From Mycobacteroides salmoniphilum (lineage in GTDB: Bacteria > Actinomycetota > Actinomycetes > Mycobacteriales > Mycobacteriaceae), in NCBI RefSeq assembly GCF_004924335.1, contig NZ_CP024633.1, positions 3,844,001-3,908,000 on the forward strand: a stretch of 64,000 nucleotides of DNA. The letters are read 5' to 3'. Below, piece after piece: positions 54,394 through 58,678 of the stretch. The position numbers and the translations under genes were made by a program. The first letter of the stretch is position 1, and each line of letters starts with the position of its first letter. Below the pieces are notes generated by a model that was not told the origin of the DNA, did not search any database, and saw only the letters and a list, made by a program, of their open reading frames with translations.

Positions 54394-54413
54394 AACTCTA
54401 CCGAGGGGTGTCC

Positions 54414-55652
54414 GTGTTGACCAGACCCGTCATCGTGTTGTTCTCGATTGCCTGCGGGCTCGCGGTGGCGACCATCTACTTCTCACAACCGCTACTGGAC
54501 ACCATCGGCGCGCAATTCTCCATGCCCACAGCACAAGTCGGCATCGTGCTAACCCTCACTCAGGTGGGGTACGCCATCGGCCTACTGCTGATCGTGCCGC
54601 TCGGAGATACCGTCAACCAACGCCGGCTCATCGTCGGGCAGACCGTTCTGCTGGGTGTTTCCCTCCTTGCCACGGCGATATCGCCCAATGCGTGGACATT
54701 CCTGCTCAGCGTCACCGCGGTCGGTGCGCTCGCGGTGGTGACGCAGGTGATGGTCGCCTACACGGCGGTACATGCCGCGCCAGAGCGACAGGGATGGGCC
54801 GTCGGCGTGGTCACCGGCGGCATCATCAGCGGTATTCTCTTGGCACGCACGGTATCCGGCGCCCTGTCCGATATGTTCGGCTGGCGAGCGGTGTATGTGG
54901 TGGCCGCCATCGCCGCAGTCGCGACCGCGGCGATGTTGGCGCGCGCACTGCCGCACTCCACGCGCCCGCCTCAGGGGCTGCCCTACCGGCGACTGATCGC
55001 CTCCACGCTGCGACTCCTGCGTGACGTGCCGGTGTTGCGCTCGCGGGCCATCATCGCGATGCTCATCTTCGCCGCCATCACCGTGATGTTGACGCCCATG
55101 GTGTTACCGCTGACGTCCGCCCCATATCACTTGTCGCATACCCAAGTCGGGTTGTTCGGGCTGGCCGGGGCAGCGGGTGCACTGGGCGCGTTCAAGGCCG
55201 GATCATGGTGCGACAGGGGGTGGGCCAATCGGGTTACCGGCGTGGGCCTGTCGCTGATGCTGGCCGCATGGGCATTCGCGGCGACCCTGCGCTGGACCCT
55301 GCTCGGACTGACCATCGCAGTCGTGATCATCGACTTCGGGCTGCAGTCGGTACACGTGGCGAATCAGAGCCTCATCTACCGGCTGGATACCGAACTCCGC
55401 GGCCGACTCACCGCCGCCTATATGACGTTCTATTCGATCGGCAGCGCTGTCGGCGCCATTATGTCGACCTGGGTGTACGCGGCCCACGGATGGGGCGGAG
55501 TTTGCCTGCTGGGCGCCGCGATAAGCCTGGGCGCACTGTGCTATTGGATCGGGAGCAGCACCAGCTCTGGCGTGGTGGCCGCCGCGGACACCGACAACCG
55601 CTGCCGGGAAAGTGCCGGCCATGCCTGCACGGCACAGAACGGCGCGCACTGA
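54414..55652 (+). CDS. MFS transporter
   Basis: 412 residues from the GTG at 54414, seven bases after GAGG; a GTG at 54408 is in frame too. About twelve hydrophobic segments are visible, with the MFS loop motif GDTVNQRRLIVGQ between helices 2 and 3. It resembles drug/sugar exporters of the YfhI/YgaY type. Control by the divergent HxlR regulator suggests a stress-induced exporter. The last 112 bases overlap the convergent radical SAM gene. Confidence 0.9.
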   Translation: MLTRPVIVLFSIACGLAVATIYFSQPLLDTIGAQFSMPTAQVGIVLTLTQVGYAIGLLLIVPLGDTVNQRRLIVGQTVLLGVSLLATAISPNAWTFLLSVTAVGALAVVTQVMVAYTAVHAAPERQGWAVGVVTGGIISGILLARTVSGALSDMFGWRAVYVVAAIAAVATAAMLARALPHSTRPPQGLPYRRLIASTLRLLRDVPVLRSRAIIAMLIFAAITVMLTPMVLPLTSAPYHLSHTQVGLFGLAGAAGALGAFKAGSWCDRGWANRVTGVGLSLMLAAWAFAATLRWTLLGLTIAVVIIDFGLQSVHVANQSLIYRLDTELRGRLTAAYMTFYSIGSAVGAIMSTWVYAAHGWGGVCLLGAAISLGALCYWIGSSTSSGVVAAADTDNRCRESAGHACTAQNGAH

Positions 55653-57103
55653 TCCTGTGCGGCGTGCGTCGCGACATGCACACAGCACTGGGTGAGCCGC
55701 TCCTCGATCATCGTCGACATATCCATGAACGGCTTGACGGTGATCCGCACTATGCGCTCTCCGAGCATGCGCCGCAGCTTCTCCCGGCGTCCCGGTAACG
55801 CCGAGGCGGCGAGCGTCATCAACGTGGAGATTCCCAAATCACAGCTGTCACAGATGGTCTTCCACACATCGCCGATCGTCGGATGCGACAGGGAGGATTG
55901 CTCGGAAAGCAGGCCCAACAGCGACTCCTTGACCGCCAGCCGCAGCTGCTGCGGAACCTCCTGATCGGCAATACGATTGGATACCAATCCGAGGTTCTCC
56001 TTGAGACGATCGTGTCCGATAAGGGAGGTCAACGACCGCCACACTCCCGCATCATCGCGCAGCAGGTATCCCACCGAGCAGCAGTGGGGATGCGAACACG
56101 GCAGGGCCGTCAAGTCGCGCCAGGTGACAACGTCACCCGTCTGCGGGCCAAGACGTTTCAGCACACCGGTATGGGTGAGCCGTTGCATGGGGTCGATCGC
56201 GCCTGCTCGGCCCGACCCGAACTGTGGCTGTATCGAGACACCTCCCACGTAGGGCGTGTCGAGGGCCAGCCGGATGACCGCGCCGATGTCCGCGTCGTTG
56301 ACACCGAGCGCCGCGGTCATGACCAATGTCGTGAAGATCTCGCTGTCCGAGAGACGTTGCACCGCCTCGGCTTTGATTCTGGTCAGATCGCCACCTCGGT
56401 GATGGCGCGAAGCGTCGGCCGACGGGCCGTCGTACTGGAGATAGACCTCCACGCGCTCACGGTGACGAGCCAGCAGCTCCAGCAGGGCATCGTCGCGGGC
56501 AATGAGAACCCCGTTGGTATTGATCAAGATTCGGGTGATCGGGCGAGCCATCAGCTCGTCGAGCAGCTGGGCAAGATTCGGGTACACGGTGGGTTCGCCG
56601 CCGCTGAGCATCAGGACGTCTAGCCGGCCGTTCTCCCGCGCAAGCCGCTGGTCGACGTTGGCGAGCACCCGTTGCACCGGTACCACACCGTGCAGGTCCG
56701 GTGAGGAATCGGCGAAGCAGGTTGGGCAGCGTAGATTGCACGCCTCGGTGATGTCGGCCAGCAGGATGCAGGTGTGCTGGGTCTGCATCTCAGGCAACCC
56801 GCGCAGATACGCCATCGGGATGGGATCGAAATTGCCTGGCGCATCCGGAACATGGGTCTTGGTGGGAGCCGTCCACTCCTCCAGGTACTCAAGGATCTCT
56901 GCGTCCTCGTCATACAGCGTGCGCACCAACCCGTGTGTGCGGCAGGCTCGTTCGAGCCACACCCGATCGTCACGGTGTGCGAGCCAGCCCGAGAGCCGTT
57001 CCACCTGCGCAAGCGAGCGCTCCGGGTTCGACTCGTGACACTGAGGACAGAAGGCGTTGACGTACCGCAGGATGCGATCCCCGCGCAGACCCATACCCGC
57101 CAC
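55541..57103 (-). CDS. Radical SAM protein of the tetraether synthase (Tes/MJ0619-like) family
   Basis: 520 residues from the GTG at 57103, five bases after GGAG (an ATG at 57094 is next). Region 1: FCPQCH at about 17-22 and CRTHG, a cysteine-rich N-terminal cluster site. Region 2: radical SAM core CNLRCPTCF with CX3CX2C and LSGGEPT. Region 3: CSHPHCCSVGYLL and, near the end, CCVHVA...PFC. This order matches the archaeal MJ0619/Tes family, which joins lipid chains C-C via radicals, and its bacterial relatives. With an Lgt-like protein in the operon, a lipid substrate is likely; that is inference. Confidence 0.82.
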   Translation of the reverse strand: MAGMGLRGDRILRYVNAFCPQCHESNPERSLAQVERLSGWLAHRDDRVWLERACRTHGLVRTLYDEDAEILEYLEEWTAPTKTHVPDAPGNFDPIPMAYLRGLPEMQTQHTCILLADITEACNLRCPTCFADSSPDLHGVVPVQRVLANVDQRLARENGRLDVLMLSGGEPTVYPNLAQLLDELMARPITRILINTNGVLIARDDALLELLARHRERVEVYLQYDGPSADASRHHRGGDLTRIKAEAVQRLSDSEIFTTLVMTAALGVNDADIGAVIRLALDTPYVGGVSIQPQFGSGRAGAIDPMQRLTHTGVLKRLGPQTGDVVTWRDLTALPCSHPHCCSVGYLLRDDAGVWRSLTSLIGHDRLKENLGLVSNRIADQEVPQQLRLAVKESLLGLLSEQSSLSHPTIGDVWKTICDSCDLGISTLMTLAASALPGRREKLRRMLGERIVRITVKPFMDMSTMIEERLTQCCVHVATHAAQDQCAPFCAVQAWPALSRQRLSVSAAATTPELVLLPIQ

Positions 57104-57105
57104 GT

Positions 57106-57561
57106 CTACTCCAATCCGTCCAACATCGAAAGGCAGCCCACGATGAACCCCGTCATGATCGCCACCGTCGCCCACCCGATCATGAAGCCGATTCCCAGCC
57201 CACGGACCCAATCTCGGCCCCACACTGTCAACGCGAGCCCGCCACCCAGGCCAATGACGGACATCACGATGGCCACCACGGTCGCCCGGGTGTCAGGTGA
57301 AAACCCACCACTCATCGCGTTCTCCAGGACCAGAAAGGTCCCGAATGTCATCATCCAGAACACGAAGATGCCGACGAAGGTCATCCCCACCACCGTGCCA
57401 TTGCTCGACTTCGGCGGCGGCCGCCGATAGGGGTAGTAACCCGGCGGATACTGCGGATAGCCCGGCGGTGGTGGGTATCCGGCGGGGCCGTACGGATGCG
57501 GGCCATATGGGTACGGCTGAGGTTGCTCACCTTCGGGCGGCGGCAGCGGCGGGGTGCTCAT
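57106..57561 (-). CDS. Small membrane protein with Pro/Tyr-rich N-terminus
   Basis: 151 residues, starting within the ATGA overlap with the previous gene. Residues 1-50 are Pro/Tyr/Gly-rich (PYGPHPYGPAGYPPPP). Three membrane segments follow, the last being GLGIGFMIGWATVAIMTGFIVG. The last segment is clearly related to that of the neighbour at 57558-57893, so the two genes are paralogues. The function is unknown; probably an accessory of the lipid-modifying operon. Confidence 0.82.
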   Translation of the reverse strand: MSTPPLPPPEGEQPQPYPYGPHPYGPAGYPPPPGYPQYPPGYYPYRRPPPKSSNGTVVGMTFVGIFVFWMMTFGTFLVLENAMSGGFSPDTRATVVAIVMSVIGLGGGLALTVWGRDWVRGLGIGFMIGWATVAIMTGFIVGCLSMLDGLE

Positions 57562-57893
57562 TGGTACAGCACCGGATTAAGCCCCGTGCAGATTCCGACC
57601 GTGAGCATGGATACCAACGCCCAGCCGACCATCAGGCCCACCCCCCAACCGCGCTTGTCGCGATCCCCCGTTCTGATGAGCACCGTGCCCACGCCAAAAG
57701 CAACCGCAATCCCCATCACCGCAACAAATCCGGGTACCGCCTCGAAGCCGGTGCCATACCTGTCGGCCAACGATCCACCGACCATCAGGGCGAGAAATCC
57801 AAACACCGCGTTACCGAAAATGAAGGAGAGTGCACCGGCGACCATTGTCGCCCCGCTCGTCCCGGGTTTGGGCTGTTCGGGTGGATAGCTCAT
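57558..57893 (-). CDS. Small membrane protein, paralogue of the next gene
   Basis: 111 residues from the ATG at 57893, overlapping the Lgt-like stop by an ATGA; the longer frame is a shadow. A short Pro-rich start (SYPPEQPKPG) is followed by three membrane helices; GWGVGLMVGWALVSMLTVGICTG mirrors the partner gene. Function unknown. Confidence 0.82.
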   Translation of the reverse strand: MSYPPEQPKPGTSGATMVAGALSFIFGNAVFGFLALMVGGSLADRYGTGFEAVPGFVAVMGIAVAFGVGTVLIRTGDRDKRGWGVGLMVGWALVSMLTVGICTGLNPVLYQ

Positions 57894-58666
57894 GCCGTCG
57901 CCACCTCGGCAAGGCGCCTGCGGAACATGCCGTCGTAATACCCCGCACGGTGACCACGCCACAACCGCCACGCGGCAAGTGTCATGCCCATCAGCAGAAC
58001 CCATTGCGGGCGAGTGAGATTCAGCCAAACCGTTTCGTTGGCGCGGGTGAACTCGACGAAGAACCGGAATACCGCGTACGCGGACACGTAGAGCACGAAG
58101 AGCTCACCGGGATGTGTCACACGCGGACGCAGCCACCACCACAGCACGGCGAAAGCCACCAACTGGAAGGCGATCTCGTACAGGAAGGACGGATGCATGG
58201 CCACCCCGGTCAGGCATCCCGGACAGTTCGGCCGCGTGGCCGGAGCGTGCACACCCCACGGCAGCGAGGTGGGTCGGCCCGGAGCCTCGGTGAGGTGACA
58301 TCCGATCCGGCCCACGGCCATACCCAATGCCACCGCGGGGGCGAACAGATCGCCCGTCTTGGCCTGGTAACCGATAAGCCGCTTGGCCACCAAGACGCCG
58401 ACGTACGCCCCCAACAGCCCGCCGATGATGCTGCGCGACCCGAACATCCACGCCTCGACAAGGCTGGGATTGTGCGCCGGGTTGAGATGTTCGATCCAGC
58501 CCGATAGCCGCATACCGATCGCGCCGCCGACCAGCGCACCCGCCACCGCGATCAGCGACTGTTCCGCGGGAGCACCCCTGCGCCGCGCTTCGCCGGCGAA
58601 GACCAGGGCGGCAACCAGCACTCCGAGCCCTACAAAGAGCCCGTGCACGCCAATTCCCAGCCCCAT
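57890..58666 (-). CDS. Lgt-like protein (prolipoprotein diacylglyceryl transferase family)
   Basis: 258 residues from the ATG at 58666. Lgt signatures: GRIGCHLTEAPGRPT (the GRxGNFIN-type loop, here GRIGCHLTE), HPSFLYEI and LYVSAYAVFRFFVEFTR. About seven membrane helices. Lgt moves diacylglycerol from phosphatidylglycerol to lipoprotein Cys; the altered loop and operon context (two small membrane proteins, radical SAM enzyme) suggest a specialised paralogue working on another lipid. A TACAGT -10 ends six bases before the ATG, so translation may be leaderless. Confidence 0.87.
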   Translation of the reverse strand: MGLGIGVHGLFVGLGVLVAALVFAGEARRRGAPAEQSLIAVAGALVGGAIGMRLSGWIEHLNPAHNPSLVEAWMFGSRSIIGGLLGAYVGVLVAKRLIGYQAKTGDLFAPAVALGMAVGRIGCHLTEAPGRPTSLPWGVHAPATRPNCPGCLTGVAMHPSFLYEIAFQLVAFAVLWWWLRPRVTHPGELFVLYVSAYAVFRFFVEFTRANETVWLNLTRPQWVLLMGMTLAAWRLWRGHRAGYYDGMFRRRLAEVATA

Positions 58667-58672
58667 CGGCTC

Positions 58673-58678
58673 ACTGTA
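58673..58678 (-). promoter_or_regulatory. -10 element of the Lgt-like operon
   Basis: TACAGT in the minus direction; six bases then the ATG at 58666, which would place the transcription start on the A of the start codon. No ribosome site precedes the ATG. Confidence 0.5.

Follow-up and report, generated by a model that had tools for sequence, protein, structure and literature searches.

The four-gene locus

The window analyzed here is a 64,000-nucleotide stretch of DNA from Mycobacteroides salmoniphilum (contig NZ_CP024633.1, positions 3,844,001 to 3,908,000). On its minus strand, four open reading frames at 57890-58666, 57558-57893, 57106-57561 and 55541-57103 encode an Lgt-family membrane protein (LgtL), two small membrane proteins (SM111 and SM151) and a radical SAM protein (rSAM). 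The genes are joined by ATGA, ATGA and a 2-base gap, after which rSAM starts with GTG at 57103; there is also an in-frame ATG at 57094. The tight four-gene operon of the original prediction was thus borne out. The leaderless promoter proposed with it is unproven: a scan for sigma-70 promoters and terminators found none, and a TACAGT hexamer noted by eye at 58673-58678 ends 6 nt ahead of the LgtL ATG.

LgtL (57890-58666, 258 residues) passes the Pfam LGT model (127.7 bits, cut-off 24.9) and falls below the TIGR00544 equivalog cut-off (92.1 against 118.9 bits). The best Foldseek match of its predicted structure (pLDDT 80) is E. coli Lgt (5azb, E 4.7e-5). The altered Lgt motifs described earlier are real and extend across the family alignment: the position of E. 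coli Y26 is occupied by His8 (codon 58643-58645; 110/110) and that of N146 by Cys123 (codon 58298-58300; 113/113). The positions of R143, E151, Y235, R239, E243 and R246 are retained in the alignment with E. coli Lgt, the roles of these residues being taken from excerpts of PMC4728403 and PMC8689077. Within the family, five residues of the phosphatidylglycerol (PG) site are found in 113/113 sequences and Y197 in 112/113. The essential set Y26, R143, N146 and R239 is therefore incomplete, with only R143 and R239 kept. Since excerpts of three papers describe Y26 and N146 as essential in E. coli Lgt (PMC4728403, PMC8689077, PMC13251419), LgtL could be without transferase activity. Its assignment as a canonical Lgt was rejected on the equivalog score and these two replacements; a separate canonical Lgt is encoded elsewhere in the genome. 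A change at the H103 position was dropped as a diagnostic of LgtL, because W and Y are reported there for Actinobacteria and Firmicutes (PMC13251419, in the part available) and the canonical Lgt of this genome aligns W.

rSAM (55541-57103, 520 residues) passes the Pfam models Radical_SAM (PF04055; 70.6 bits, cut-off 29.5) and HMPTM zinc ribbon (PF23545; 40.4 bits, cut-off 27). Its best solved relative is GDGT-MAS/MJ0619 (7tol/7tom), both by sequence (E 9.1e-29) and by fold (Foldseek 7tom, E 2.4e-21). At pLDDT 68 the rSAM model is of modest confidence, with low values for the radical SAM loop and for sections of the C-terminal region, and it was therefore used for fold assignment only. A PHROGs search yielded only weak hits, to the radical SAM core. 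Among the 25 of 52 NCBIfam matches listed, the best curated families were TrsS (195.1 bits) and Tes (151.1 bits), both far below cut-off (490 bits for NF045646 and 450 bits for NF045702). Peptide-maturase models of the SPASM type, among the same 25 of 52, match the core only, ending by residue 284, and no SPASM domain was found behind it. In the profile comparison by which the original prediction could be judged, the top matches were thus TrsS and Tes and not a SPASM peptide maturase.

The claim that rSAM carries the three cysteine regions of the MJ0619/Tes family needs one correction, concerning the N-terminal cluster. The rubredoxin-type site of Tes, C9x2C12x20C33x2H36 in GDGT-MAS (PMC9433317, in part), is present as C19-x2-C22 ... 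C54-x2-H57 (56933-57049; 114/114 at each position). The radical SAM motif C122-x3-C126-x2-C129 (56717-56740) is likewise found in 114/114 sequences, as are C473, C474, H476 and C490 of the C-terminal region (55634-55687), with C486 in 113/114. The N-terminal [4Fe4S] ligands of MJ0619 (C73, C77, C80) are missing, the aligned stretch YLRGLPEMQ holding no Cys. Membership of Tes or TrsS was rejected because both cut-offs are missed and the Tes N-cluster ligands are absent. The loss of the N-cluster was dropped as a peculiarity of this clade, since P126, the aligned relative closest to TrsS, is also without the motif.

Conservation and the small membrane proteins

The pairing of an Lgt-like gene with a radical SAM gene is strongly conserved in diverse bacteria. 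Of 80 named loci, a subset kept from at least 572 relatives, 76 have LgtL upstream of rSAM in the same orientation; the other four comprise one divergent LgtL and three loci at contig edges. The linkage anticipated by the original prediction is therefore seen in other genomes. Among 198 sampled genomes of the genus (raw counts, kinship ignored), rSAM was found in 52, all with LgtL, and the SM profile was positive in exactly the same 52 (58 matches, all listed ones adjoining the module). Both sets fall inside the 54 genomes with LgtL. Chance adjacency was rejected on the conserved linkage and these identical genome sets. Other neighbours vary between groups of loci, and no further constant partner was found in the survey of loci with crude gene calls. 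A literature search found no paper describing the module.

The small membrane proteins are the most informative part of the module, although they were minor in the earlier reading. In the SM-A type, a Cys, mostly in the form Gly-x-Cys, closes the last helix a few residues before the C-terminus. This tail occurs in 74 of the 80 named loci (71 by filter, L129 and L192 by eye, and L196). SM111 (57558-57893, 111 residues, ending ..TVGICTGLNPVLYQ) matches the SM profile and has the tail motif, with its conserved Cys codon at 57588-57590. SM151 (57106-57561, 151 residues, Pro-rich N-terminus, ending ..GFIVGCLSMLDGLE) is an SM-A paralogue: it is the second SM-profile match in this genome and by BLAST resembles SM-A genes from other loci, and its aligned Cys (codon 57133-57135) lies 2 residues off the family register, with no Gly at -2. 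The Cys-tail filter was passed by 83/804 ORFs at the module and 2/3,499 in the flanks; when only ORFs that have a hydrophobic helix at the C-terminus are counted, the figures are 83/173 and 2/105. Gly stands at -2 in 78 of 81 unique candidates, though the filter does not require it. Most tails belong to one family (57/81 unique tails are CTGLNP-like); Gly at -2 is also found in 21 of the 24 unique candidates without a CTGLNP-type motif. Charged residues just before the helix are mainly basic (K/R 203, D/E 29), a pattern which suggests that the Cys faces outward, the side where Lgt works.

SM-A forms at L112 and L153 are apparently single-helix. No SM-A was found nearby in four named loci (L128, L131, L143 and L151); three of these are three of the four Gemmatimonadota loci. 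A second, optional protein, SM-B, has two invariant Cys (72/72). It was not found in this genome or in 25 of the 80 named loci, and was present in one of ten chosen genus genomes. The bacterial lipobox has A, G or S before its Cys. The residue before the SM-A Cys is A in 9, G in 2, F in 24, I in 14, Y in 11, L in 7, T in 5, V in 5 and W in 4 of the 81 unique tails; 70 of the 81 thus differ from a lipobox.

Possible functions of the module

Lipid chemistry of some kind is the likeliest function. The C-terminal Cys of SM-A points to a protein acceptor, and a hypothesis confined to lipids leaves it unexplained. From the observed linkage, co-occurrence, Cys tail, helix charge pattern and fold assignments, we favour, at somewhat short of even confidence, a self-contained lipid-modification module in which SM-A would be the dedicated substrate. 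The last helix of SM-A, with a basic and probably cytoplasmic start, would place the Cys at its outer end, as in a lipoprotein signal peptide that is not cleaved. LgtL, with its PG-binding arginines retained and its active site changed, may transfer a diacylglyceryl group onto this Cys. rSAM, an MJ0619-class enzyme, would then modify acyl chains, either of the tethered lipid or of a neighbouring one, for instance by C-C coupling or sulfur insertion, with the radical step presumably at its C-terminal cluster. This reading is favoured by the same-strand linkage, the identical rSAM and SM genome sets, the frequency of the SM-A tail at the module and its rarity in the flanks, the basic residues before the helix, the apparently single-helix forms and the retained PG-site positions; the presence of up to two SM-A copies per LgtL/rSAM pair is as expected of a substrate. 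Against it stand the replaced Y26 and N146, the low activity presumed for an M. smegmatis paralogue with these two changes, the predominance of non-lipobox tails, the four loci without SM-A and the descent of most tails from one family. In addition, rSAM is expected on the cytoplasmic side and the SM-A Cys outside. The lipid-remodelling hypothesis of the original prediction is thus kept in part: the conserved linkage and the lack of a SPASM match agree with it, while the Tes identity is not supported and a protein acceptor lies outside its lipid-only form.

It is also conceivable, but doubtful, that rSAM acts on free membrane lipids in the manner of Tes, coupling or altering their acyl chains, with LgtL supplying or presenting the diacyl lipid, SM-A as anchor or scaffold and its Cys structural. 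Lipid cross-linking by rSAM is possible, given that GDGT-MAS is its closest solved relative and that three Cys regions are retained. The Tes score and the missing N-cluster ligands argue against this account, which also gives no reason for the Cys being a fixed feature of SM-A. M439 and Y459 of MJ0619 align with K457 and V477, though GDGT-MAS mutants at both positions are described as robustly active in the available part of PMC9433317.

The placing of a radical SAM gene next to one for a small, variable protein whose C-terminal Cys is fixed recalls the precursor-maturase pairs of RiPPs, and GDGT-MAS chemistry proceeds via a carbon-sulfur bond (PMC9433317, in part). rSAM might accordingly create a linkage, thioether or otherwise, at the SM-A Cys before the protein enters the membrane, with LgtL acting later or only binding lipid. 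This is improbable: the listed peptide-maturase models cover the core only, and the Cys closes a hydrophobic helix that, to judge by its charges, would point its tail outward. Slimmer still is the prospect that the SM-A Cys and the SM-B Cys pair act in a membrane complex as redox or metal ligands, with LgtL as a catalytically dead lipid-binding subunit; the replaced Lgt residues and the invariant SM-B cysteines would fit, but the PG site is conserved and SM-B was not found here or in 25 of the 80 named loci. A redundant second Lgt with unrelated neighbours is hardly credible, being already contradicted by the linkage, which persists while other neighbours change, and by the identical genome sets.

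The favoured lipid-modification module has a bolder form, which we consider unlikely: a new type of lipoprotein in which a dedicated Lgt paralogue lipidates a C-terminal Gly-x-Cys and an MJ0619-class enzyme then cross-links or otherwise alters the attached lipid by radical chemistry, to give a protein-tethered modified or membrane-spanning lipid. If true, some second Lgt copies would have a defined job, the lipobox would be joined by a different signal, the Cys tail, and radical SAM chemistry would enter bacterial protein lipidation.

Comparison with known systems

LgtL shares the fold and PG-site residues of Lgt and differs from it by Y26H, N146C and a TIGR00544 score below cut-off. The same signature is reported for MSMEG_5408, a second Lgt homologue of M. 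smegmatis with "presumed low Lgt activity" (PMC13251419, excerpts); the text available of that paper contains no word beginning "radical". With TrsS (seleno)protein (NF045646), rSAM shares its highest score among the curated matches listed, and P126 (450.6 bits) shares the lack of the N-cluster motif. However, in the two mycobacterial paralogue loci inspected, a methyltransferase-like gene either follows the radical SAM gene or is fused with it, and LgtL is absent. With Tes/GDGT-MAS, rSAM has in common the fold, the rubredoxin site, the radical SAM motif and the C-terminal Cys-rich region; it differs in its identity of about 20 percent, its sub-cut-off score, the absent N-cluster Cys, K457 and V477, and its linkage to LgtL and SM-A. 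Bacterial Tes-like genes thus need not mean tetraethers, as the aligned members of this clade are without the Tes cluster ligands and have a different partner set. The parts of the module are known folds, and the whole fits none of the systems tested. The joint occurrence of an Lgt-type enzyme, a radical enzyme and a small membrane protein with a fixed terminal Cys hints at an undescribed route by which membrane lipids are attached or altered.

Conservation of the operon

The four genes of the operon are in confirmed open frames on the minus strand: LgtL (57890-58666), which encodes an Lgt-family membrane protein; SM111 (57558-57893) and SM151 (57106-57561), which encode small membrane proteins of the type SM-A; and rSAM (55541-57103), which encodes a radical SAM protein. 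Their junctions are, in order, ATGA, ATGA and 2 bases, as expected from the original prediction of overlapping or nearly abutting genes. A convergent MFS gene (54408-55652, plus strand) and the 3' end of rSAM share 112 bases (55541-55652).

The proposed pairing of an Lgt-like gene with a radical SAM gene was upheld by a survey of neighbourhoods. Among 198 genomes of the genus, taken from a larger group, 52 carry a close rSAM copy (split in G074 and ended by the contig end in G008) and 54 carry LgtL. LgtL was found in 52/52 rSAM genomes (Fisher p 7e-46, kinship ignored); the two genomes with LgtL alone have it at a contig edge (G141) or as a fragment with a TAG (G091). An SM profile made from module-linked copies matches the identical set of 52 genomes, and all 58 match places adjoin the module (the LgtL, SM-A and rSAM genes). 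Beyond the genus, LgtL adjoins rSAM in all seven family loci fetched (L101-L107) and in six of seven phylum loci that carry a close rSAM copy (L108-L112, L114), the seventh (L113) being a contig piece. A contig scan gave at least 572 relatives, from which 80 named loci were kept. LgtL lies upstream of rSAM on the same strand in 76 of these 80 and is divergent in L143; the other three (L136, L149, L161) have fewer than 560 bases of sequence upstream. By record title, four of the 80 are from Gemmatimonadota, four from Oscillochloris (Chloroflexota) and the rest from Actinomycetes or relatives. The loci from the first two groups are all MAGs, so the presence of the module in those phyla depends on binning. 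The closest LgtL to that of the window, among the named loci listed, are from Mycobacterium sp. D16R12 (97 percent) and Mycobacteroides sp. LB1 (91 percent). The genes beyond the module vary from one locus group to another. Near more distant rSAM relatives, LgtL was found in 0/10 (L052-L061) and 0/13 loci (L115-L127, some on short contigs). BLAST pieces in two frames, reflecting decay or sequencing error, were seen for rSAM in L064 (G074) and for LgtL in L177 and L202. In L112, a stretch of about 220 bases, apparently inserted with the frame left open, breaks the rSAM match near query residue 351.

A second small membrane protein, SM-B, is encoded after rSAM in 55 of the 80 named loci and, counting repeats and distant relatives, in 72 of the 142 loci that were searched. 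Its gene mostly lies within 300 bases of the rSAM end. Two Cys are invariant (72/72) in the motif DPLRLC ... SKCxLRDTRLVL (for example in L108, L128 and L131). Against Pfam, three members had no match and a fourth only a weak one (E 0.2). SM-B was not found in the M. salmoniphilum genome of the window.

The Lgt-family protein

The only structural match of the LgtL model (pLDDT 80) at E <=0.001 in a fold search was E. coli Lgt (5azb, E 4.7e-5). E. coli residues R143, E151, R239, E243 and R246 correspond to R120, E127, R201, E205 and R208 of LgtL and are kept in 113/113 sequences; Y235 corresponds to Y197 (112/113). Y26 is replaced by His8 (110/110) and N146 by Cys123 (113/113), which agrees with the prediction of an Lgt-family transferase with altered motifs. 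The roles of the E. coli residues are described in the accessible parts of two papers (PMC4728403; PMC8689077). The M. salmoniphilum genome (4.78 Mb, one contig) also encodes a canonical Lgt, which scores 218.2 bits vs 129 for LgtL.

A paralogue of this type has already been noticed. M. smegmatis MSMEG_5408 has both changes and is described as having "presumed low Lgt activity" in a 2026 paper (PMC13251419), whose text has no word that starts with "radical". No paper connecting the MSMEG_5408-type paralogue with the module was found in literature that excluded most subscription papers and all preprints; for Lgt together with radical SAM, nothing was on topic judging by titles. A zinc-homeostasis comparison (PMC7174638, seen in part) gives a -8.97-fold change for the hypothetical gene MSMEG_5406, whose number is near that of MSMEG_5408.

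SM-A and putative Cys lipidation

In most mycobacterial, Nocardia and Nonomuraea loci, SM-A ends in GFCTGLNPxxY or a close variant. Elsewhere (Oscillochloris, one Gemmatimonadota locus, other Actinomycetes), BLAST often finds no similarity between the gap ORF and the usual SM-A, yet the ORF still finishes in a hydrophobic helix with Gly-x-Cys close to the C-terminus, as in L129 (QGTCFLIIAKST), L132 (AGVCFAMLSSMYN), L133 (GGTCLIVIRW) and L207 (GGACVAIIASFGG). Candidates were defined by a Cys no more than 34 residues from the C-terminus, following a 19-residue stretch with a mean hydropathy >1.2 whose last ten positions contain no charged residue and no Q, N, H or P.

This filter gave candidates in 71 of the 80 named loci kept from at least 572 relatives; with L129 and L192 (by eye) and L196, the tail is present in 74. 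Sequence on one side is missing for L149 and L166. No candidate was found in L128, L131, L143 and L151; the last three are from Gemmatimonadota, which leaves SM-A in one of four loci there. The position of the gene varies: ahead of LgtL, between LgtL and rSAM, or following rSAM (L184, L197). The filter passed 2/3,499 flank ORFs (both strands) vs 83/804 module ORFs (sense strand), and 2/105 vs 83/173 of ORFs with a C-terminal hydrophobic helix, the module rows being mutually non-independent in both comparisons. Gly stands at -2 of the Cys in 78 of 81 unique candidates, though the filter did not require it. A CTGLNP-type motif is absent from 24 of the 81, and 21 of these still have the Gly; the other three are two SM151-type tails and the L132 frame, which is probably spurious. 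In the SM alignment, Gly is kept in 37/37 and Cys in 36/37 sequences, the odd one being SM151 of the window, with its Cys two residues later. SM-A in L112 and L153 has a DUF2510 domain and apparently one helix.

In geometry, the SM-A tail would match a lipoprotein signal peptide whose outer end carries the Cys. Charged residues ahead of the helix are mainly basic (K/R 203, D/E 29), which should place the Cys on the outer side. Since an Lgt-family gene is almost always alongside, lipidation of this Cys by LgtL is the simplest joint explanation. Most tails have a bulky residue (F, I, Y or L) immediately ahead of the Cys; by the lipobox rule, this should block cleavage by signal peptidase II. Three points count against lipidation: two residues that are essential in E. 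coli Lgt are changed in LgtL, the radical SAM enzyme would be expected to work from the cytoplasmic side, and SM-A is missing from four loci.

The radical SAM protein and GDGT-MAS

The role of the radical SAM enzyme is the least certain step of the proposed mechanism. Its best curated profile matches are TrsS and the tetraether synthase Tes, in line with the predicted affiliation, but both fall far below cut-off. Another mycobacterial radical SAM protein, with 31-34 percent identity, is encoded in L052-L061 (for example L054:7166-9522); two that were scored gave 328 and 342 bits for TrsS and 311 and 330 for Tes, and both aligned rows keep a CGLCPDH motif. Its gene in L054 is followed by one for a SAM-methyltransferase-like protein (265 aa, read from sequence); in L053 the two are fused.

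By fold, rSAM matches the MJ0619 enzyme GDGT-MAS (7tom, E 2.4e-21, TM 0.62), whose ligand residues are given in the accessible part of PMC9433317. rSAM retains the rubredoxin site and the C-terminal Cys region, along with the radical SAM motif. The N-cluster Cys of MJ0619 are absent from the five rSAM-clade rows aligned. They are present in 7 of 8 other relatives aligned and absent from P126, the relative nearest TrsS. In GDGT-MAS, the first radical is described as being held in a bond with one of the sulfurs of the C-terminal cluster (PMC9433317). Because this region is well kept in rSAM, it is a reasonable guess, and no more, that rSAM may likewise form carbon-carbon or carbon-sulfur bonds on a lipid.
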